Of a DNA stretch of 64,000 nucleotides, positions 13,749-43,120 are shown in pieces (the stretch's first letter is position 1; each line of letters opens with the position of its first letter). The DNA lies in NCBI GenBank assembly GCA_021799475.1, contig JAJZAJ010000001.1, positions 186,001 to 250,000 on the forward strand, given 5' to 3'. This DNA is from Microcaldota archaeon. Its GTDB lineage: Archaea > Micrarchaeota > Micrarchaeia > Micrarchaeales > Micrarchaeaceae. The position numbers and the translations under genes were made by a program. The notes below the pieces were generated by a model, which was given only the letters and a program-made list of their open reading frames with translations, ran no database searches and was not told the DNA's origin.

Positions 13749-14315
13749 ATGACGTTCTACAAAACAATGAAAGGCACTTTCGCAAACGAGTACAAGACAA
13801 GATCCGACGAGTACAAGACAAGGCTTTCACTCTGGAGCTCGCAGCCCTCAGTATCGAGAATCGATAAACCGACAAACATAGCGAGGGCAAGGGAGCTCGG
13901 ATACAAGGCAAAGCAGGGAGTTGTCGTCGTAAGAGTCAGGGTGCTCGGTGGAAAGAAAAAGAGGCAGCAGGCCGGCGGAGGGAGGAAGCCGTCGAAATCA
14001 GGAAGGTTCTTCTCAAGGCAGAAATCCCCACAGTCGATTGCGGAGGAAAGGGCAGCCACGAAGTTTTCCAACTGCGAGGTAATGAACTCATATTTCGTTG
14101 GCGAAGCCGGCACAGAGAAATACTTCGAAGTGATTATGCTCGACAGGACAAGCCCAGTCGTGCTTTCGGATGCGCAGTATTCGCAAGTAGTGCGGCAGAA
14201 GGGGAGGGCATCGAGAGGTCTTACTTATCAAGGAAGGAAACACAGGGGAATCAGGAACAAGGGCTTTGGGACAGCTAGGTTCAGGCCGTCAAAGAGAGCC
14301 AACAACAGAGGCTAA
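13749..14315 (+). CDS. rpl15e: Ribosomal protein L15e
   Basis: This large-subunit protein is shared by archaea and eukaryotes (eL15). It has the family N-terminus (MTFYKTMKGTF), the RIDKPTNIARARELGYKAKQG segment, the GGGRKPSKSGRFF stretch and the C-terminal GLTYQGRKHRGIRNKG. Length 188 is normal. The ATG follows TGATGATAAA, the leader motif common here. In many archaea this gene heads a run leading to RNase P, exosome and Brix genes; here it is followed directly by the duplicated helical-repeat genes and then Brix. Confidence 0.95.
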   Translation: MTFYKTMKGTFANEYKTRSDEYKTRLSLWSSQPSVSRIDKPTNIARARELGYKAKQGVVVVRVRVLGGKKKRQQAGGGRKPSKSGRFFSRQKSPQSIAEERAATKFSNCEVMNSYFVGEAGTEKYFEVIMLDRTSPVVLSDAQYSQVVRQKGRASRGLTYQGRKHRGIRNKGFGTARFRPSKRANNRG

Positions 14316-14339
14316 TCGCTTCACGCTGCTTTTCCGGCA

Positions 14340-14427
14340 GCCGCAGCGTATGTATCTGCGATAAGTTCCCGATCCATTCGCGATATTCAGCAACATTGAC
14401 GTAATATCCGGGGAAACGGACAGATAG
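14340..14427 (+). pseudogene. nuoD 3'-end fragment (copy 1)
   Basis: The last bases of nuoD recur here: TTCGCGATATTC and then GACGTAATATCCGGGGAAAC and the terminal GACAGATAG match the true gene end at 41097-41149 with a few substitutions and a small deletion. The reading frame is not continuous with any start, so it is a dead copy. The following 135 bases also match the nuoD 3' flank, up to the TATA region of the repeat gene. Confidence 0.85.
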
Positions 14428-14559
14428 CACATTCTCCATCAGCAGCCGCGAGCCAGTAAAATCAAAAACTACTAAAGAAGTAAAGGCAAATAATCTGTAT
14501 TTATTCCCATTTTTACTGGAAGGCCAAAACCACATTTCCCGGAGAAACCCAACCCATAG

Positions 14560-14604
14560 CAACAATTATATATTATATGGAACACCATTCACTGCAGTGG
14601 TAAT
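14560..14604 (+). promoter_or_regulatory. Repeat-gene A promoter: TATA box and CACTGCAGTG palindrome
   Basis: An ATTATATATTATA TATA box lies at 14566-14578, about 30 bases upstream of the start codon. The perfect palindrome CACTGCAGTG (14590-14599) sits six bases before the ATG, so it overlaps the expected transcription start or the translation start site. The same arrangement precedes all four members of this gene family. Confidence 0.7.
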
Positions 14605-15441
14605 ATGCCTGACAAAACAGCCTTGGCGGATCAGCAGAAACTCGTGGCACTTATAGATGAGCTGACTCCAGACGCGAGAACAACAGCACTGAAAAGAGCA
14701 GAAGAGATAGGACTGCTTCCCAGTAATAAAACTACGACTGCAGAAGCATATGAGAAGAAGGGAGAGTATGCCTCTGCAGCCAAAATCTGGCTACAATTAG
14801 ATAACAAAGACAGAGTCGCAGCATGCGCGGAAGCATATGAGAAAGGTGGGTGGTACGCCAACGCCGCAGAAATCTGGCTACAATTAGATAATAAAGACAG
14901 AGCAGCATTATGCGCAGAAGCATATGAGAAGAAGGGAGAGTATACCGTTGCCGCAGAAATCTGGCTACAATTAGATAAGAAAGAAAAGGCAGCGAAAGCA
15001 TATGAGAAGAGGGGATGGAATGCCTCTGCCGCAGAAATCTGGCTACAATTAGATAAGAAAGAAAAGGCAGCGGAAGCATATGAGAAAGGGGGGTTGTATT
15101 CCAATGCCGCAGAAATCTGGCTACAATTAGATAAGAAAGAAAAGGCAGCGAAAGCATATGAGAAAAGGGGATGGTATACCGCCGCAGCAAAAATCTGGCT
15201 ACAATTAGATAATAAAGACAGAGTTGTAGTATGCGCGGAAGTATGTGAGAAGAAGGAAGAGTATGCCTCTGCCGCAGAAATCTGGCTACAATTAGATAAT
15301 AAAGTGAAGGCAGCGGAAGCATATGAGAAAGGTAGGCGGTACACCGACGCCGCAACGATATACAAGATGCTGGGAAACGCTCGAAAAGAAGCGGCGCTTG
15401 TGGAACTGGCGGCGCTGCTCCGCGATCAAAATAAATCATAG
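14605..15441 (+). CDS. Helical-repeat (TPR/SNAP-like) protein A
   Basis: This is a 278-residue cytosolic protein of tandem two-helix repeats, the shortest of four paralogues here. It has a shared N-terminal cap (about 45 residues, with LIDELTPDARTTALKRAEE), about seven repeats of the form YEKxGxYxxAAxIWLQLDNK, and a C-terminal cap with ATIYKMLGNA. Repeats are 29 residues when the linker contains CAEA and 26 when it is shorter, both under the 34 of classical TPRs. No signal peptide or membrane segment is present. Such solenoids usually bind proteins; the partner is unknown. Nucleotide identity between repeats is very high, pointing to recent expansion or gene conversion. Confidence 0.85.
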   Translation: MPDKTALADQQKLVALIDELTPDARTTALKRAEEIGLLPSNKTTTAEAYEKKGEYASAAKIWLQLDNKDRVAACAEAYEKGGWYANAAEIWLQLDNKDRAALCAEAYEKKGEYTVAAEIWLQLDKKEKAAKAYEKRGWNASAAEIWLQLDKKEKAAEAYEKGGLYSNAAEIWLQLDKKEKAAKAYEKRGWYTAAAKIWLQLDNKDRVVVCAEVCEKKEEYASAAEIWLQLDNKVKAAEAYEKGRRYTDAATIYKMLGNARKEAALVELAALLRDQNKS

Positions 15442-15489
15442 AAGGAGCATCCCATGTTTTGGGATACATGCGCAGATGGCTAAGGGCCG

Positions 15490-15601
15490 GATCCCTGGGT
15501 TCGTAAAATTGCCTCATTGTGCAAACTGTCATCGGCACTAAGTTCTCGACCTGTTCGCGATATTCGGCAGTGACGTAATATCCGGGAAAACGGACAGATA
15601 G
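15490..15601 (+). pseudogene. nuoD 3'-end fragment (copy 2)
   Basis: This second remnant lies between repeat genes A and B. It matches nuoD from the codons for SIRSPGF onward (about 41025-41149) and keeps GACCTGTTCGCGATATTC and the terminal GACAGATAG, with frame-breaking deletions. It is joined on its left to the 3' flank of gene A (ATGGCTAAGGGCCGG), giving a duplication junction near 15490. About 135 bases of matching nuoD 3' flank follow. Confidence 0.85.
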
Positions 15602-15737
15602 CACATTCTCCATCAGAAGCCGCGAACCAGTAAAATCAAAAACTACTAAAGAAGTAAAGGCAAATAATCTGTATTTATTCTCATTTTCTGCCGGAAGATA
15701 AAAGACACCGCATTTTCCAGAGAAACCCAATCCCTAG

Positions 15738-15782
15738 CAACAATTATATATTATATGGAATACCATTCACTGCAGTGGTAAT
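15738..15782 (+). promoter_or_regulatory. Repeat-gene B promoter: TATA box and CACTGCAGTG palindrome
   Basis: The same layout as in front of gene A is present: a TATA stretch near 15742-15755 and CACTGCAGTG at 15768-15777, six bases from the ATG. The 341-base gap between genes A and B otherwise holds only the copied nuoD remnant and its flank. Confidence 0.7.
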
Positions 15783-16808
15783 ATGCCTGACAAAACAATC
15801 CTAGCTGACCAGCAGGAACTAATAACACTTATAGATGAGCTGACTCCAGACGCGAGAACAACAGCACTGAAAAGAGCGGAAGAAAAAGGACTGCTTCCCA
15901 GTAATAAACCTGAGGCTGCAAAAGCACATGAGAAGAGGGAGCAGTACGCCGCCGCCGCAGAAATCTGGCTACGATTAGACAACAAACCCAAAGCAGCAGC
16001 ATGCGCAGAAGCATGTGAGGAAGGCGAGCAGTATGCCGACGCAGCAAAAATCTGGATACAATTAGGCAGCAAACCCAGAGCCGCGTTATGTGCAGCAGCA
16101 TACGAGGATAGAGGGCTGCATATCTCTGCCGCCAAAATCTGGCTACAATTAGACAACAAACCCAGAGCAGCAGCATGCGCAGAAGCATGTGAGGAAGGTG
16201 AGTGGTACGCCGACGCCGCCAAAATCTGGCTACAATTAGACAACAAACCCAGAGCAGCAGAAGCATACGAGAAAAGTGGGTGGTATAACGCCGCAGCCAA
16301 AATCTGGCTACAATTAGACAATAAAGAACGGGCAGTATCATGCGCGGAAACATATGAGAAGAGGGAGCGATATGCCGACGCAGCAGGAATCTGGCTACAA
16401 TTAGACAACAAACCCAGAGCAGCATTATGCGCAGAAGCATGTGAGAATAAGGGACAGTACGCTGATGCAGTCACAATCTGGCTGCTGTCGGGTAATAAAC
16501 CCAGAGCAGCATTATGCGCAGAAGCATATGAAAAGAAGGAGTGGTATTTCGCCGCCGCCAGAATCTGGCTAGAATCAGACAATAAAGAAAGAGCAGTATC
16601 ATGCGCGGAAGCATGCGAGAAGAAGGAGCAGTATGCCGACGCCGCCAGAATCTGGACAAAATTAGACAACAAACCCAAAGCAGTATCATGCGCAGAAGCA
16701 TCTGAGAAGAAGGGACAGTATGACGCTGCTGCAGAGATATACAGGATGCTGGGAAACGCTCAAAAAGCAGCAGCGCTTACTAAACTGGCAGCGCTGCTCC
16801 GTGATTAA
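15783..16808 (+). CDS. Helical-repeat (TPR/SNAP-like) protein B
   Basis: This 341-residue paralogue of A has the same N-terminal cap (TILADQQELITLIDELTPDA), about nine two-helix repeats and the C-terminal cap AAEIYRMLGNAQKAAAL. Most units are the 29-residue form with ACAEACEE or ALCAEAYE linkers. Its repeats have drifted more than those of C and D (for example TIWLLSGNK, RIWLESDNK, RIWTKLDNK). It lies in tandem with A and is followed by a broken pfdB and a second piece of nuoD. Function unknown; a protein-binding scaffold is likely from the fold. Confidence 0.85.
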   Translation: MPDKTILADQQELITLIDELTPDARTTALKRAEEKGLLPSNKPEAAKAHEKREQYAAAAEIWLRLDNKPKAAACAEACEEGEQYADAAKIWIQLGSKPRAALCAAAYEDRGLHISAAKIWLQLDNKPRAAACAEACEEGEWYADAAKIWLQLDNKPRAAEAYEKSGWYNAAAKIWLQLDNKERAVSCAETYEKRERYADAAGIWLQLDNKPRAALCAEACENKGQYADAVTIWLLSGNKPRAALCAEAYEKKEWYFAAARIWLESDNKERAVSCAEACEKKEQYADAARIWTKLDNKPKAVSCAEASEKKGQYDAAAEIYRMLGNAQKAAALTKLAALLRD

Positions 16809-17042
16809 AGTAAATCATAGAAGGAGCATCCATGTTTCGGGATATCTGTGTAGATGGCTAATGGCCGATTAGTTAATTAGGCGCAATCCATGTGCCACAA
16901 TGACGCAATTATAATATTTCGCTTCCTATATTCACTAGTTTCTAAATGATACCTATGGAGAAACTTACCAGGGGCTACCGGATGATACGGGAACAGCTGC
17001 GATACTGATGATGCAGAAAGAGCGGTTCAGCATGCAGAATTC
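16809..17042 (+). pseudogene. pfdB 5' fragment with upstream flank
   Basis: The 146 bases after gene B match the region between gene D and the intact prefoldin gene (42651-42781), including GGAGCATCC and ATTTCGCTTCCTATATTCAC. From ATG 16955 the copy encodes a prefoldin-beta N-terminus (MEKLTRGYRMIREQL) but lacks a 15-base stretch and meets TGA after 17 codons. It ends near 17042, where the sequence switches to a nuoD piece. This is a dead copy made by duplication. Confidence 0.85.
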
Positions 17043-17162
17043 AGCATGCCGATAAGGCTTATAGGCCCTCCAGCAAAACCCCATGCTGTAATTATGAGCA
17101 GGGAGCTGCAAAAAGGGGAAGGAATAGCATACATTGTGCCGGACTGGCAAACAAATGGATGA
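17043..17162 (+). pseudogene. Internal nuoD fragment (copy 3)
   Basis: From 17046 the sequence reads MPIRLIGPPAKP and continues about 38 codons matching nuoD residues from the intact gene at 40902-41005, ending at TGA 17160-17162. It begins exactly where the pfdB fragment stops, so a pfdB-to-nuoD junction is preserved, as expected from a head-to-tail array of nuoD-repeat gene-pfdB blocks. Its end overlaps the start region of the Brix gene. Confidence 0.85.
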
Positions 17163-17170
17163 GGGTCAAC

Positions 17171-17503
17171 ATGCCTCTAATAACCCACTCTAGAAAAGGA
17201 GACGATCTATACGCGCTCTGCAGGAGCATATCAAGGCTTTTTGATGAAGCGGTAGCGGTACGGAGGGGCACGAAGACGGTAAAACGATTGGCGGAAGTGG
17301 CGGAGAGGGAGGGGTTTGCCAAAGTAGTGCTCATAGAGAACAGGAGCAAAAGCAAATCTACCATAGTAACAGTCTTGACAAAAGAAGGAGGAAGGCTAAG
17401 ATGGGGAACTACATACATTATAAAACGAAAAGGGAAAAGCATACATATAACGGATATGGGTGGCAACGATGCAAAGAATGAGTTCAAAAACGAGGCAGAG
17501 TGA
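17171..17503 (+). CDS. Short Brix-domain protein
   Basis: Brix proteins act in ribosome assembly. The N-terminus PLITHSRKGDDLYALCRSI, the AVRRGTKTVKRLAEVAEREG segment and the following KVVLIENRSKSKSTI strand follow the archaeal Brix pattern (TSRKP..., RG..S...). At about 110 residues it is clearly shorter than the 150-180 typical of archaeal members, so the C-terminal half is reduced. I chose ATG 17171; the upstream ATG at 17159 lies in the nuoD remnant. It overlaps Pcc1, its usual archaeal neighbour, which supports the call. Confidence 0.65.
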   Translation: MPLITHSRKGDDLYALCRSISRLFDEAVAVRRGTKTVKRLAEVAEREGFAKVVLIENRSKSKSTIVTVLTKEGGRLRWGTTYIIKRKGKSIHITDMGGNDAKNEFKNEAE

Positions 17504-32124: not shown

Positions 32125-32260
32125 TCCGCGAACCAGTAAAATCAAAAACTACCCAAGAAATAAAGGCGGATAACCTGCTTATTTATTCTCATTTCCCGGA
32201 GAAACCCACCCCTCCACAACAATTATATATTATACAGAACACCACTACTGCAGTGGTAAT
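32125..32260 (+). repeat. Copied nuoD 3' flank and promoter of repeat gene C
   Basis: From about 32125 (CCGCGAACCAGTAAAATCAA) the sequence matches the 3' flank of nuoD and the corresponding flanks of genes A and B, with some deletions. The nuoD coding end itself is not included. A TATA stretch lies at about 32221-32233 and ACTGCAGT at 32247-32254, seven bases before the ATG. The left boundary of the duplicated block in this copy is therefore within the nuoD 3' flank. Confidence 0.8.
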
Positions 32261-33517
32261 ATGCCTGACAAAACAATCCCAGCTGACCAGCAGGAACTAA
32301 TAACACTTATAGATGAGCTGACTCCAGAGGCGAGAACAACAGCACTGAAAAGAGCGGAAGAGATAGGACTGCTTCCCACTAATAAAGCTGCGGTTGCGGA
32401 AGCATATGAGAAGAAGGGAGAGTATGTCTCTGCCGCCAAAATCTGGCTACAATTAGACAACAAACCCAGAGCAGTATCATGCGCAGAAGCATCTGAGAAG
32501 AAGGGAGAGTATGTCTCTGCTGCCAGAATCTGGCTACAATTAGGTAACAAAAACAGAGCCGCAGTATGCGCAGAAGCATCTGAGAAGAAGGGGTGGTATG
32601 CCAACGCCGCCAGAGTCTGGCTACAATTAGATAATAAAGATAGAGCTGCAGCATGCGCGGAAGCATGTGAGCAGGAGGCATGGTATGCTGACGCCGCAGA
32701 AATCTGGCTACAATTAGATAACAAAGACAGAGTTGCAGCATGCGCGGAAGGATATGAGCAGAAGGCATGGTATGCCGCCGCAGCAGAAATCTGGCTACGA
32801 TTAGGTAACAAAGAAAAGGCAGCGGAAGCATATGAGAAGACGAGAGATTATATCGACGCAGCCAAAATCTGGCTACGATTAGGTAACAAAGAAAAGGCAG
32901 CGAAAGCATATGAGAAGAAGGGATGGTACGCCGACGCCGCCAAAATCTGGCTACAATTAGATAACAAAGACAGAGTTGCAGCATGCGCGGAAGCATATGA
33001 GAAGAAGGGAGAGTATGCCGCCGCAGCCAAAATCTGGCTACAATTAGATAACAAAGACAGAGCTGCAGCATGCGCGGAAGCATATGAGAAGAAGGGAGAG
33101 TATGCCGCCGCAGCCAAAATCTGGCTACAATTAGATAACAAAGAAAAGGCAGCGAAAGCATATGAGAAGAATGAGTGGTATATCGACGCCGCCAAAATCT
33201 GGATACAATTAGATAATAAAGTTATGGCAGCGAAAGCATATGAGAAGAAGGGAGAGTATACCTTAGCCGCAGAACTCTGGCTACAATTATATAAGAAAGA
33301 AATGGCAGCGAAAGCATGTGAGAAGAATGGATTGTATGCCGCCGCAGCAGAACTCTGGCTACAATTAGGTAACAAAAACAGAGCCGCAGCATGCGCGAAA
33401 GCATGTGAGAAGAATGGATTGTATGCCGACGCCGCAACGATATACAAGATGCTTGGAAACGCTCAAAAAGCAGCAGCGCTTACGAAACTGGCTGCGCTGC
33501 TCCGCGATCAAAACTAA
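32261..33517 (+). CDS. Helical-repeat (TPR/SNAP-like) protein C
   Basis: This 418-residue paralogue has the shared N-terminal cap, about 12 two-helix repeats, and the ATIYKMLGNAQKAAALTKL cap. Two linkers alternate, ACAEAYEKKGEY (29-residue unit) and KAAKAYEKKGWY (26-residue unit). Repeats 7 to 9 are almost identical in DNA as well as protein, so unit gain or loss by recombination is likely. Two late repeats have AAELWLQL in place of AAKIWLQL. No export signal. It stands away from the nuoD-pfdB locus, with a copied upstream flank but no copied downstream flank. Confidence 0.85.
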   Translation: MPDKTIPADQQELITLIDELTPEARTTALKRAEEIGLLPTNKAAVAEAYEKKGEYVSAAKIWLQLDNKPRAVSCAEASEKKGEYVSAARIWLQLGNKNRAAVCAEASEKKGWYANAARVWLQLDNKDRAAACAEACEQEAWYADAAEIWLQLDNKDRVAACAEGYEQKAWYAAAAEIWLRLGNKEKAAEAYEKTRDYIDAAKIWLRLGNKEKAAKAYEKKGWYADAAKIWLQLDNKDRVAACAEAYEKKGEYAAAAKIWLQLDNKDRAAACAEAYEKKGEYAAAAKIWLQLDNKEKAAKAYEKNEWYIDAAKIWIQLDNKVMAAKAYEKKGEYTLAAELWLQLYKKEMAAKACEKNGLYAAAAELWLQLGNKNRAAACAKACEKNGLYADAATIYKMLGNAQKAAALTKLAALLRDQN

Positions 33518-33662
33518 TAATAAATAAGCAGACCTAGGCAACTGAGCAATACATACATCCCGTTAAGATGCTGCAAAGATAAACACATGGAATGCGGCGG
33601 GTATACTATTGTATCCCGCACTACTGGTTTTTATTCTTTCCTTATGTTTAATTATTGAGTTT

Positions 33663-38835: not shown

Positions 38836-39166
38836 TTATCTAAAGAAGATAACCGCGGTGGACTACCTGACGTACTTGGAAGCAGTGTATATGCTGTACA
38901 ACATAGAGGAAAAAAAGGACGAGATAGTTAAGGTGAAACTGGAGCTTCCCACAGACAAAAAGTCACGATTATCCCTGCCTACTGTAATGCATGTGTACAA
39001 GTCAGCCGACTGGTACGAGCGAGAGCTCCAGGAGATGTTCGGCATAATGATAGAAGGCAGGGATGTGCAGAGGCTGCTGCTGGAGAACTGGAATGGGATA
39101 GATTATCCGCTAAGGAAGAGCTTCGAATGGGGGAAGGATTACAGGAAAGAGGGTGAAACGGAATGA
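38762..39166 (+). CDS. nuoC: NADH-quinone oxidoreductase subunit C
   Basis: This is the 30-kDa-type subunit of complex I. SADWYERELQEMFGIMIEG is the family signature and is followed by RLLLENWNGIDYPLRKSF. At 134 residues it is a short version. The start is a GTG within nuoB. Its stop codon TGA overlaps the ATG of the pilin-like gene (ATGA at 39163-39166), which means coupled translation of a complex I subunit and a surface protein. Confidence 0.92.
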   Translation: MVNLLEIQKKDLVRTLEELKGKHFDYLKKITAVDYLTYLEAVYMLYNIEEKKDEIVKVKLELPTDKKSRLSLPTVMHVYKSADWYERELQEMFGIMIEGRDVQRLLLENWNGIDYPLRKSFEWGKDYRKEGETE

Positions 39167-40047
39167 AATCACAGTCAGCAATGGAATATCTCATGACGTA
39201 CGGTTGGGCAATACTCATCATCGCGGTTGTATTGGGAGTGCTGTTCCAGCTGGGAGTCTTTTCCGGCAGCGCGCTGACGCCGAAGGCGCAGCCCGGAAGC
39301 TGTCTAGTTCTGAGAATTGCAGGACAGGTCTCTCTGGAAGGAGAGTGTCAGGGGCAGTTGCCGGAGTATGTTGCGCATTTCAATGGTGTAAATGCTGAAG
39401 TATCAATATCTGCAAACGAGTTGGAAACAGGAGAGGTAACGAATGGCGGGAGCAACAAAGTTACTATCACCGCATGGGCGGCGTCGAACGTGATTGCAAC
39501 AGGAGTGCAGGCAGACATCGTGCACTATGGCTATAATTCTGAGTGTACTTCGATTGATAACAATATGGAATTTGTAATGGCTCAAACCGGAATTGGAGCT
39601 CATACAATAATAGACTGTTCCAACATGCAGGAGTTCCCTGATTCGGCAGGCGTCTGGAGATTCTATGCGATGGAAACTGACGGTTCGAATGAGATAAGCT
39701 ACGCAGGTTATGGAGGTACTATCAACGGAGGCACAGTCGAGGCGATAACCCATGTAACACTACCAGCTGCATCGCCGCTCAGCATAGGTGCATCTGGCCC
39801 ATTTGCCAATTATTTCAACGGAAGCATCGCGAACGTGCAGATATACAACACTTCTCTCTCATCGAATGAGCTCGCCGCGCTTTATCAAGAAGGCATCGGC
39901 GGCGCTCCTATCAACATACAGAACCTTGTTGGCTGGTGGCCGCTCAACGGCAACGCACAGGATTACTCAGGAAACAACAATAACGGGCAGATTAGCGGAG
40001 GAGTAAGCTTCAACAGCAGCTGGCAGAGCGGGTATACGCCACCGTGA
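39163..40047 (+). CDS. Class III signal-peptide pilin-like protein with LamG-type domain
   Basis: The N-terminus MKSQSAMEYLMTYGWAIL, followed by a hydrophobic helix, is the class III signal of archaeal type IV pilin-like proteins, cut before the QSAMEYL segment by a prepilin peptidase such as EppA. The outer part of about 250 residues contains four cysteines and a C-terminal jelly-roll of LamG/concanavalin type (FNGSIANVQIYNTSLSSNEL and LVGWWPLNGNAQDYSGNNN). A few sequons occur. Its start overlaps the nuoC stop and its stop lies four bases before nuoD, so it is fully inside the complex I operon, an odd place for a surface protein. Confidence 0.85.
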   Translation: MKSQSAMEYLMTYGWAILIIAVVLGVLFQLGVFSGSALTPKAQPGSCLVLRIAGQVSLEGECQGQLPEYVAHFNGVNAEVSISANELETGEVTNGGSNKVTITAWAASNVIATGVQADIVHYGYNSECTSIDNNMEFVMAQTGIGAHTIIDCSNMQEFPDSAGVWRFYAMETDGSNEISYAGYGGTINGGTVEAITHVTLPAASPLSIGASGPFANYFNGSIANVQIYNTSLSSNELAALYQEGIGGAPINIQNLVGWWPLNGNAQDYSGNNNNGQISGGVSFNSSWQSGYTPP

Positions 40048-40051
40048 TACT

Positions 40052-41149
40052 ATGGGGCTGATGAGAATAAACGTTGGACCAATCCACCCAAGCACGCATG
40101 GTGTGCTAAGACTTGTCGTAGACGTGGATGGCGACACGATAAAAAATGTAGAGCCCCATATAGGATTCCTTCACAGGGGCGTAGAGAAACTCTGTGAAAC
40201 CCGCATGTACATGCAAAACCCTTCTTATTTCGAGAAGCTCGACTACATATCGCCATTGAGCTGGGATGAGATATATGTGTCGGCAGTAGAACAGGCACTA
40301 GGCATCCCGGTCAAGGAAGCGGCACAGTGGGTGCGCGTGATACAGTTAGAACTCCAGAGGATAGCAAATCACCTCCTCTGGATAGGCACTCTATGCAACG
40401 ATATAGGCCAGATGTTCACAACCTTCATGTGGGCATTCCGGGACAGGGCGCAGGTGCTTAAGCTCCTGGAAGATGTTTCCGGAGGCAGAATGTTCTACGT
40501 ACACCTCAGGCTCGGAGGCTTTCAGAGACCCCTGCCACCGGATTTCGCAGAAAGGACATACAACCTTACCGATTACCTGGAAAGGAACGTGCTGCAATAC
40601 CGGGATGTCCTGGACGAGAACCCGATATTTACTGAGCGACTGAGAAACGTAGGTGCGATAAGCGAACGGGATGCGATAGACTATGGGGTAACCGGACCAG
40701 TGCTGCGGGCCTCGGGAGTAGCAGAGGATGTAAGGAAGAGCAAGCCATATTATGTGTATGACAAGCTCGATTTCAGCATACCTACGGGAACAAGGGGTGA
40801 CAGCCTCGACAGGTATAAAGTTAGATATAGGGAGATATTCGAGAGCATAAAGATAATCAGGCAGTGCCTTGACATGATGCCAAATGAGGGCGACATAGTC
40901 GGCATGCCGATAAGGCTTATAGGCCCTCCAGCGAAACCCGATACTGTAATTGTGAGCAGGGAGCTGCCAAAAGGGGAAGGAATAATATACATGGTGCCTG
41001 ACAAGCAGCGGCCTTACAGGGTATCTATAAGATCCCCCGGATTCATAAACTTGGCGGCATTGCCTAAGCTGTCTGTCGGAGCTAAGTTCGCCGACCTGTT
41101 CGCGATATTCGGCAGCCTTGACGTAATATTCGGGGAAACGGACAGATAG
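40052..41149 (+). CDS. nuoD: NADH-quinone oxidoreductase subunit D
   Basis: This 49-kDa-type subunit forms the quinone pocket together with NuoB. Diagnostic segments are GPIHPSTHGVLRLVVDVDG (quinone-site His-x2-Thr-His), IGFLHRGVEKLCE, ELQRIANHLLWIG, and the C-terminal DVIFGETDR. Length 365 is normal. It is preceded by GTGATACT before ATG 40052. Downstream, its 3' flank is the source of the copied blocks found at 14340, 15490, 17043 and 32125. No nuoH or later genes follow. Confidence 0.96.
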   Translation: MGLMRINVGPIHPSTHGVLRLVVDVDGDTIKNVEPHIGFLHRGVEKLCETRMYMQNPSYFEKLDYISPLSWDEIYVSAVEQALGIPVKEAAQWVRVIQLELQRIANHLLWIGTLCNDIGQMFTTFMWAFRDRAQVLKLLEDVSGGRMFYVHLRLGGFQRPLPPDFAERTYNLTDYLERNVLQYRDVLDENPIFTERLRNVGAISERDAIDYGVTGPVLRASGVAEDVRKSKPYYVYDKLDFSIPTGTRGDSLDRYKVRYREIFESIKIIRQCLDMMPNEGDIVGMPIRLIGPPAKPDTVIVSRELPKGEGIIYMVPDKQRPYRVSIRSPGFINLAALPKLSVGAKFADLFAIFGSLDVIFGETDR

Positions 41150-41324
41150 CACATTCTCTATCAGCAGCCGCGAACCAGTAAAATCAAAAACCATACAAGA
41201 AATAAAGGCAAATAATCTGTTATTTATTCCCAGTTTTGCAGGAAGGTCAAACGCATTTTCCGAAGAAACCCACTCTCCCACAACAATTATATATTATACA
41301 GAACACCACTACTGCAGTGGTAAT
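41150..41324 (+). promoter_or_regulatory. nuoD 3' flank and promoter of repeat gene D
   Basis: These 175 bases match the flanks of genes A, B and C and appear to be the parent copy. CAACAATTATATATTATA (41281-41298) is the TATA region, and ACTGCAGT (41311-41318) lies seven bases before the ATG. No other gene is present. Confidence 0.7.
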
Positions 41325-42650
41325 ATGCCTGACAAAACAATCCTATCTAATCAGCAGGAACTAATAACACTTATAGATGAGCTGACTCCAGACGCGAGAA
41401 CAGCAGCACTGAAAAGAGCAGAAGAAAAAGGACTGCTTCCCAGTAATAAACCTGAGACTGCAGAAACATATGAGGAGGAGGGGTGGTATGACTATGTCGC
41501 CAAAATCTGGACATTGTTAAGCAACAAACCTAGGGCAGCAGAAGCATACGAGAAAGGTGGGCGGTACACCGACGCAGCAAAAATCTGGCTACAATTAGAC
41601 AACAAACCCAGAGCAGCAGAAGCATATGAGAAGAAGGGGGAGTATTTAGATGCAGCTAAAATCTGGCTACAATTAGACAACAAAGAAAGAGCAGTAGCAT
41701 GCGCGGAAGCATATGAAAAGAAGGAATTGTATTATACTGCCGCCAGAATCTGGATACAATTAGACAACAAACCCAGAGCAGCAGAAGCATATGAGAAGAA
41801 TGGAGGGTATGCAGACGCAGCCAAAATCTGGCTACAATTAGATAACAAAGACAGAGTCGCAGCATGCGCGGAAGGATATGAGAAAGGGGTGCGGTATGTC
41901 GACGCCGCAGAAATCTGGCTACAATTAGACAACAAACCTAGAGCTGCATTATGCGCGGAAGCATGTGAGAAGAATGGATGGTACACCGACGCAGCCAAAA
42001 TCTGGCTACAATTAGATAATAAAGTGAAGGCAGCGGAAGCATATGAGAAGAATGGAGGGTATGCAGACGCAGCCAAAATCTGGCTACAATTAGATAACAA
42101 AGACAGAGTCGCAGCATACGCGGAAGCATGTGAGAAGAATGGATGGTACACCGACGCAGCCAAAATCTGGCTACAATTAGATAACAAAGAAAAGGCAGCG
42201 AAAGCATACGAGAAGAGTGGGCGATGTGCCGACGCAGCCAAAATCTGGCTACAATTAGATAACAAAGAAAAGGCAGCGGAAGCATACGAGAAGAGTGGGC
42301 GATATGCCGCCGACGCCGCAGAAATCTGGCTACAATTAGACAACAAACCCAGAGCAGCAGAAGCATACGGGAAAGGCGGGTGGCATACCAATGCAGCCAA
42401 AATCTGGCTACAATTAGACAACAAACCCAGAGCAGCAGAAGCATACGAGAAAAGTGGGCGGTACGCCGACGCCGCCAAAATCTGGCTAGAATTAGACAAT
42501 AAAGAACGGGCAGTATCATGCGCAGAAGCATATGAGAAGAGGGAGAGGTATGCCGACGCCGCAACGATATACAGGATGCTAGGAAACGCTCAAAAAGCAG
42601 CAGCGCTTACGAAACTGGCGACGCTGCTCCGCGATCAAAATCAATCATAG
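41325..42650 (+). CDS. Helical-repeat (TPR/SNAP-like) protein D
   Basis: At 441 residues this is the longest of the four paralogues, with the shared N-terminal cap, about 13 two-helix repeats and the ATIYRMLGNAQKAAALTKL cap. Units alternate between the CAEA linker (29 residues) and the short linker (26 residues). One unit carries an extra two residues (RYAADAAEIW). The core IWLQLDNK is nearly invariant. It sits between intact nuoD and intact pfdB, and broken pieces of both flank paralogues A and B, so this is probably the founder locus. No export signal; a protein-binding scaffold is the reasonable guess. Confidence 0.87.
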   Translation: MPDKTILSNQQELITLIDELTPDARTAALKRAEEKGLLPSNKPETAETYEEEGWYDYVAKIWTLLSNKPRAAEAYEKGGRYTDAAKIWLQLDNKPRAAEAYEKKGEYLDAAKIWLQLDNKERAVACAEAYEKKELYYTAARIWIQLDNKPRAAEAYEKNGGYADAAKIWLQLDNKDRVAACAEGYEKGVRYVDAAEIWLQLDNKPRAALCAEACEKNGWYTDAAKIWLQLDNKVKAAEAYEKNGGYADAAKIWLQLDNKDRVAAYAEACEKNGWYTDAAKIWLQLDNKEKAAKAYEKSGRCADAAKIWLQLDNKEKAAEAYEKSGRYAADAAEIWLQLDNKPRAAEAYGKGGWHTNAAKIWLQLDNKPRAAEAYEKSGRYADAAKIWLELDNKERAVSCAEAYEKRERYADAATIYRMLGNAQKAAALTKLATLLRDQNQS

Positions 42651-42781
42651 AAGGAGCATCCTATGTTTCGGGATATCTGTGCAGATGGCTAAGGGTCGGT
42701 TAATTAGGCGCAATCTATGTGCCACAATGACGCCCTTATAATATTTCGCTTCCTATATTCACTGGTTTCTAAGTGATACGT

Positions 42782-43120
42782 ATGGAGAAACAGGAGTTGG
42801 AGAAACTTACCAGGGACTACCAGATGATACAGGAACAGTTGCAGGGGCTGGCGATGCAGAAAGAGCAGTTCAACATGCAGAAGATTGAGCAGAAAGAGGC
42901 TCTGTCAGAGATAGAGAAGGCTACTGGAAAGATATTCATCGCTCTCGGTGGCGTACTGGTTGAGACGAGCAAGGAAGAAGCAATTGCAAAACTCAAGGAG
43001 CGCCAGGAGTCTACCGATATGCGGCTGTCCATCATCGGCAGGCAGCATGAGGAGGCGGTAAAGAAAGAGAAGAGCATGCGCGATGAGATAACAAAGGCAC
43101 TGCAGGGTTCAAAAGCGTGA
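42782..43120 (+). CDS. pfdB: Prefoldin beta subunit
   Basis: Prefoldin is a jellyfish-shaped chaperone that hands unfolded proteins to the thermosome (encoded at 54838). The coiled coil at both ends (MEKQELEKLTRDYQMIQEQL and the C-terminal QESTDMRLSIIGRQHEE) flanks the beta hairpin with KIFIALGGVLVETSKEEA, a family hallmark. ATG 42782 follows GTGATACGT. A broken copy of the first part is found at 16955. It is followed within five bases by the DHH gene. Confidence 0.93.
   Translation: MEKQELEKLTRDYQMIQEQLQGLAMQKEQFNMQKIEQKEALSEIEKATGKIFIALGGVLVETSKEEAIAKLKERQESTDMRLSIIGRQHEEAVKKEKSMRDEITKALQGSKA

Follow-up and report, generated by a model that had tools for sequence, protein, structure and literature searches.

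A rotated copy of the nuoD-pfdB locus carries two repeat-protein genes in a micrarchaeal genome

An insert at the rpl15e junction and its source

The window analysed here is a 64-kb stretch (C3:186001-250000) of the 814-kb, three-contig genome of a Microcaldota archaeon. In it, the gene for ribosomal protein L15e (rpl15e, 13749-14315; PF00827, E=5e-50) is followed on the same forward strand by a small conserved ORF (MPLITHSRK..., 17171-17503). A "Brix-like" label given to this ORF was a mere reading and was dropped, as Pfam returned no family for it. In nine congeners of the same genus the rpl15e stop lies 2-23 bp from the next ORF (MPYITFSRN...), versus 2855 bp in the present genome, and because the two genes nearly abut in all nine, positions 14316-17170 represent a 2.85-kb insert at an ancestral gene junction. 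Such an empty ancestral acceptor site is among the features of dispersed duplication through a circular intermediate.

The insert holds two repeat-protein genes, A and B, set among pieces of nuoD and pfdB, and all of its annotated parts read on the forward strand. It begins with a nuoD 3' end (14354-14426, corresponding to donor positions ~41075-41148), for which homology is secure from ~14354 and a possible weak leftward extension to ~14340 is marginal (shuffle p about 0.08 for 14340-14353). The 5' non-coding or promoter region of gene A follows (14427-14604), which is of the type found at gene D and is 91.8% identical to D with seven gap events and 92.1% identical to B with two; gene A itself (14605-15441) encodes a 278-aa protein, recognised by its ORF and repeat structure as a TPR-like solenoid, and its D-type 3' non-coding sequence (15442-15489) can be followed by BLASTN and local alignment up to donor position 42699. 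A second nuoD 3' end (15490-15600, donor 41031-41148), with four gap events and a broken frame, then precedes the D-type 5' non-coding region of gene B as aligned (15601-15782), gene B (15783-16808; 341 aa, assigned on the same grounds), and a D-type 3' non-coding stretch corresponding to the pfdB leader (16809-16954; 93.1% to donor 42651-42781). The block closes with a pfdB 5' end (16955-17039, donor 42782-42882) carrying a 15-bp deletion and an internal nuoD piece (17041-17144, donor 40899-41002) carrying 10 substitutions. In local alignment to the donor, the four pieces are 89% (before A; one gap event), 85% (before B; four), 87% (pfdB; two) and 90% (right-hand nuoD; none) identical.

The first-pass annotation had placed nuoD 3' ends at 14340-14427 and 15490-15601, a pfdB 5' end at 16955-17042 and an internal nuoD piece at 17043-17162, and had proposed a BLASTN comparison of the block with the donor region. 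All four pieces are recovered, although the last ends at 17144 and not at 17162. Self-BLASTN of the 64-kb window pairs 14354-15303 with 15531-16499, 14362-15329 with 41083-42049, 15493-16673 with 41035-42188, 15915-17039 with 41778-42882, and 17041-17144 with 40899-41002 (104 bp, 90.4%, E=2e-34). The decay that had been read into the neighbour-gene pieces is evident: the nuoD frame is lost in both 5' relics, and the right-hand piece fits the same status since most of its substitutions change amino acids. The pieces are therefore relics of some age, and an assembly chimera, the refuting possibility raised beforehand, is disfavoured, because chimeric joins would be near-identical to their source, whereas these are 10-15% diverged and frameshifted. 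Apart from the intact donor, no nuoD coding fragment was found outside the A/B block in the whole genome.

On alignment, the source of the block is the nuoD-gene D-pfdB locus on the forward strand. Here nuoD (40052-41149; PF00346, E=3e-79), whose nearest named relatives, at 79% identity, group the genome with Candidatus Micrarchaeota, and pfdB, encoding prefoldin beta (42782-43120; PF01920, E=7e-12, with the Pfam match on a 42773 start), are both intact and enclose gene D (41325-42650; 441 aa). In 23 of 44 Micrarchaeota loci nuoD and pfdB lie -1 to 108 bp apart, and a DHH-family gene usually comes directly after pfdB, as it does at the donor locus. Since the nuoD-pfdB adjacency is ancestral, gene D is itself an insertion into an old operon. 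The locus had been called the founder; because A and B carry nuoD and pfdB relics it did found their block, but its standing as founder of the whole family is unproven. The nuoD-pfdB gap (41150-42781) resembles an insertion hot spot, because its cargo differs among Micrarchaeota loci (L085, L092, L093, L106, L108, L112, L124): a VapC-like PIN gene occupies it in L106, a pilin-LamG gene in L124, and ORFs of ~270 aa in L085, L092 and L093. The gene to the left of nuoD (39163-40047) encodes a protein with a pilin signal peptide and a LamG domain and belongs to a large family of about 18 or more loci in C1 and C3, several in tandem, whose members are alike over ~210 bp at either end (about 75-89% identical in DNA) around unmatched middles; the family is a cassette-like one of surface proteins and is possibly variable.

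The repeat-protein family

The genome contains six copies of the repeat gene, of which A to D lie in the window, E on the minus strand at C3:257.4-259.0 kb and F at C3:106.9-108.1 kb. Copy C (32126-33522, forward strand; gene 32261-33517) has no nuoD coding or pfdB sequence and retains ~135 bp of D-type 5' flank, with ~50 bp of D-type flank from 19 bp past the nuoD stop in D coordinates. The proteins, of 278-524 aa, combine a unique N-terminus of ~43 residues with 26- or 29-residue repeats. Gene D matches the Pfam profile TPR_GEMI5 (1e-13), an IFT144 profile is also matched (1e-8), and the structure predicted for D is a continuous alpha-solenoid (pLDDT 89.5). Its best PDB matches include TPR chains; TM-scores against complete solved chains are low, which limits the support to the local fold of the repeats. 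The product is thus predicted to be a TPR-like alpha-solenoid of tandem helix-turn-helix repeats. In its helical-pair repeats of 26 or 29 residues and its predicted continuous solenoid the family is like the TPR domains of Gemin5 and IFT proteins; unlike those proteins, it has no WD40 or other domain, bears the unique 43-residue N-terminus and occurs in this genome only among those searched. No relatives were found in 13 congeners or in 84,980 GTDB genomes and IMG/VR, and 84 other genomes of the taxonomic family gave only weak generic matches, in two genomes. Among the genomes searched, the family is seen only in this species.

Each copy has its own left and right limits, and a search for empty sites at C, E and F met neighbours too variable for a call. 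About 38 bp before the start codon (41288-41324 at D; TATATATTATACAGAACACCATTCACTGCAGTGGTAATATG, with the palindrome CACTGCAGTG) are the sole flank common to all six copies and are probably the promoter. The D-type 5' region extends over ~108 bp in F and ~38 bp in E, and neither copy carries nuoD or pfdB sequence; their flanks nest inside that of D, an arrangement compatible with either direction of copying and with E or F being older. Copy C probably left D later than A and B did, because its non-coding DNA is the most similar to that of D (91% identity versus 86% for both A-D and B-D). The proposal that the block records how the gene family spread thus stands for A and B, and for C by its flank, but does not extend to E and F.

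Internal junctions and the relation of A to B

Expressed in donor coordinates, the block runs from ~41075 (or perhaps 41050) to 42699 with gene A, then from 41031 to 42882 with gene B, and last from 40899 to 41002. The B unit is therefore circularly permuted, running from 41031 to 42882 and resuming at 40899, and the two ends of a 1984-bp donor segment (40899-42882), as delimited by BLASTN and alignment, are fused inside the insert at 17039-17042. This is where a clean pfdB-to-nuoD junction had been noted, at about 17042. Mapping of the joints and of their microhomology, proposed in advance, finds that pfdB and nuoD share 3-5 bases where they meet, either GCA or CATGC according to how they are aligned, and that a direct duplication of TTCAGCATGC lies close by in the 17026-17052 junction region of the forward strand, arranged as TTCAGCATGC-AGAA-TTCAGCATGC. 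At the A|B joint (42699|41031) at most 1-2 shared bases can be read from the sequence. Neither joint showed a stretch of homology of the length that homologous recombination needs, in keeping with a circular intermediate, for which microhomology or small indels are expected. The outer ends of the insert fall close together in the donor, at 41002 on the right and 41031-41075 on the left, 28-73 bp apart, although the edges are decayed; the extreme ends (14316-14335 and 17145-17170) yielded no relic homology passing shuffle tests, so that the integration joints are unreadable.

Genes A and B are sisters in their non-coding DNA. Across the shared 5' non-coding region A and B agree against D at 16 sites, versus 7 and 7 for the other two groupings (p=0.019), and A and B are separated by two gap events, versus 7 and 8 for A-D and B-D. 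Both nuoD relics also carry TTC>TCC, the altered position being T in each of the 10 congener nuoD genes. The short 3' flank of A is no closer to B (85%) than to D (88%). Either A and B were doubled after insertion, which is probable, or they were homogenised; because the shared changes lie in relic and non-coding DNA, the doubling or homogenisation came after nuoD had ceased to function in the copy. Gene conversion among the copies could imitate a sister relation of this kind. In the N-terminal coding region the signal flips, B grouping with D and C, and A with E and F (3:2:13; Fisher p=0.003). Since the grouping changes between non-coding and N-terminal coding DNA, gene conversion moves sequence between these dispersed copies, which makes a simple tree of the genes untrustworthy. 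The six genes are mosaics: in A the promoter region goes with B and the coding start with E and F.

Routes to the rotated order

The block is almost certainly a dispersed duplicative insertion from the gene D locus in rotated order. As to how it arose, we place about even confidence in a model by which a ~2-kb segment of that locus was joined end to end into a circle, reopened elsewhere, inserted and then duplicated locally. Under this model, no more than a few bases were shared where the two ends of the donor piece (40899-42882) were joined, the product being most likely a circle. That circle would have opened elsewhere, close to the 3' end of nuoD (about 41003-41060), and gone into the junction of rpl15e with the gene downstream. 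Local duplication of the inserted gene at the 42699|41031 junction would then have produced A and B. The hitch-hiking fragments of nuoD and pfdB may have decayed because they were useless, both repeat-gene frames having stayed open, and later gene conversion among family copies may have replaced the coding start of A or B. The physical circle, the end-joining and the placing of insertion before duplication are inferred. The fusion of the donor ends within the copy and the apparent near-adjacency of the copy ends in the donor together match the signature published for circular intermediates, here limited to one locus. The same order would also be left by serial template switching or by a transient tandem array at D.

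Serial template switching of the MMBIR/FoSTeS type, which has been considered a possible insertion step elsewhere (PMC7450558), is an unlikely but credible rival. A break after rpl15e would have been patched by repeated copying from the D locus (41050 to 42699, 41031 to 42882, then 40899 to 41002), with microhomology jumps between the tracts. The two unlike internal junctions, the scarcity of homology and the micro-duplication at 17026-17052 would all fit such a process; however, it predicts neither the derived changes shared by A and B nor the near-abutting ends.

About as unlikely is amplification of nuoD 3'-gene-pfdB 5' in tandem at the native locus, followed by movement of a slice to the rpl15e site, collapse of the native array, and loss of the first pfdB|nuoD junction, between A and B, through a ~315-bp deletion. 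Duplications in tandem arise commonly and collapse easily, and one repeat unit would explain all three pieces in order. However, no array remains at D, and successive units of an array should meet at the same junction, whereas 42699|41031 differs from 42882|40899, making the extra deletion necessary. The close outer ends would require a chance coincidence, expected for 3-7% of random slices of an array with a 1984-bp unit, a figure computed post hoc and of modest weight. In addition, the derived changes common to A and B in relic and non-coding DNA would have to arise before or during amplification, or to spread by later homogenisation. The first-pass annotation had favoured a head-to-tail array; the head-to-tail, rotated order holds, but an array of identical units is unneeded. 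Given the unlike junctions and the sister relation of A and B, permuted insertion with local duplication afterwards is at least as economical.

Carriage of the gene by a transposon, integrase or casposon-like element is very improbable. The genome does hold a single Y1 transposase-like frame and three matches to tyrosine recombinases, of which one falls below the cut-off, yet these lie on another contig or more than 150 kb away, none in the block, and standard excision circles reopen at their closing point and so yield no permutation. The differing limits of the copies are unlike an element with fixed ends. As had been stated at the outset, neither the block nor its surroundings show a transposase; terminal or inverted repeats were not found near the junctions, nor is a target duplication evident in or around the block. 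The Y1 (IS200/IS605-type) frame is short (C3:369012-369176) and is the sole PF01797 match in the genome. Least credible is an assembly or binning artefact, for although genes rich in repeats are known to mislead assembly, the copies differ by 10-25% and have independent frameshifts, the flanks of the empty site match those of congeners and the contig spans 438 kb.

In prokaryotes, dispersed copies of a gene are usually ascribed to transposons or horizontal transfer. The nuoD and pfdB scraps settle, for one dispersed copy in a streamlined archaeon, what the donor was, which way copying went and where the joints lie, and they point to circle- or repair-based copying. Beyond the circle-and-reinsertion model for this block, we tentatively suggest that short extrachromosomal circles may spread genes in small DPANN archaeal genomes by microhomology end joining, transposase-free, leaving rotated scraps of neighbours as a genealogical record. 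A search of the literature, covering open-licence papers, found no archaeal case of duplication through a circular intermediate and nothing relevant on TPR proteins or duplicated genes in Micrarchaeota; if the suggestion is true, the block would be the first archaeal example of circle-spread genes in the literature searched. Whether species-specific repeat-protein families in DPANN expand by such copying is now testable.

Duplication through a circular intermediate is already known in eukaryotes. Its criterion is a flip from A-B/C-D to B-A/D-C with microhomology and short indels, as described for human segmental duplications (PMC7450558); tilapia vasa bears the signature of circular-DNA-mediated duplication (PMC3245284), and cattle KIT translocations via circular DNA are described by Durkin et al. 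(2012), as cited in PMC7450558. The A/B block resembles these cases in being a distant copy, rotated internally, with the donor ends fused inside, the copy ends apparently near-adjacent in the donor and only a short shared sequence at the joint. The eukaryotic examples span 20-575 kb and some of their joints are base-exact, whereas the block is archaeal, about 2 kb long, decayed and marked by a second local duplication. A further parallel is region B of Zygosaccharomyces bailii in wine yeast, whose inserts are circularly permuted with 2-3 shared bases (PMC3053389). That region occupies several sites in differing permutations and has a demonstrated replication origin, whereas the A/B block is permuted at one site; in both, the integrated copies are circularly permuted with little or no homology at the breakpoints.
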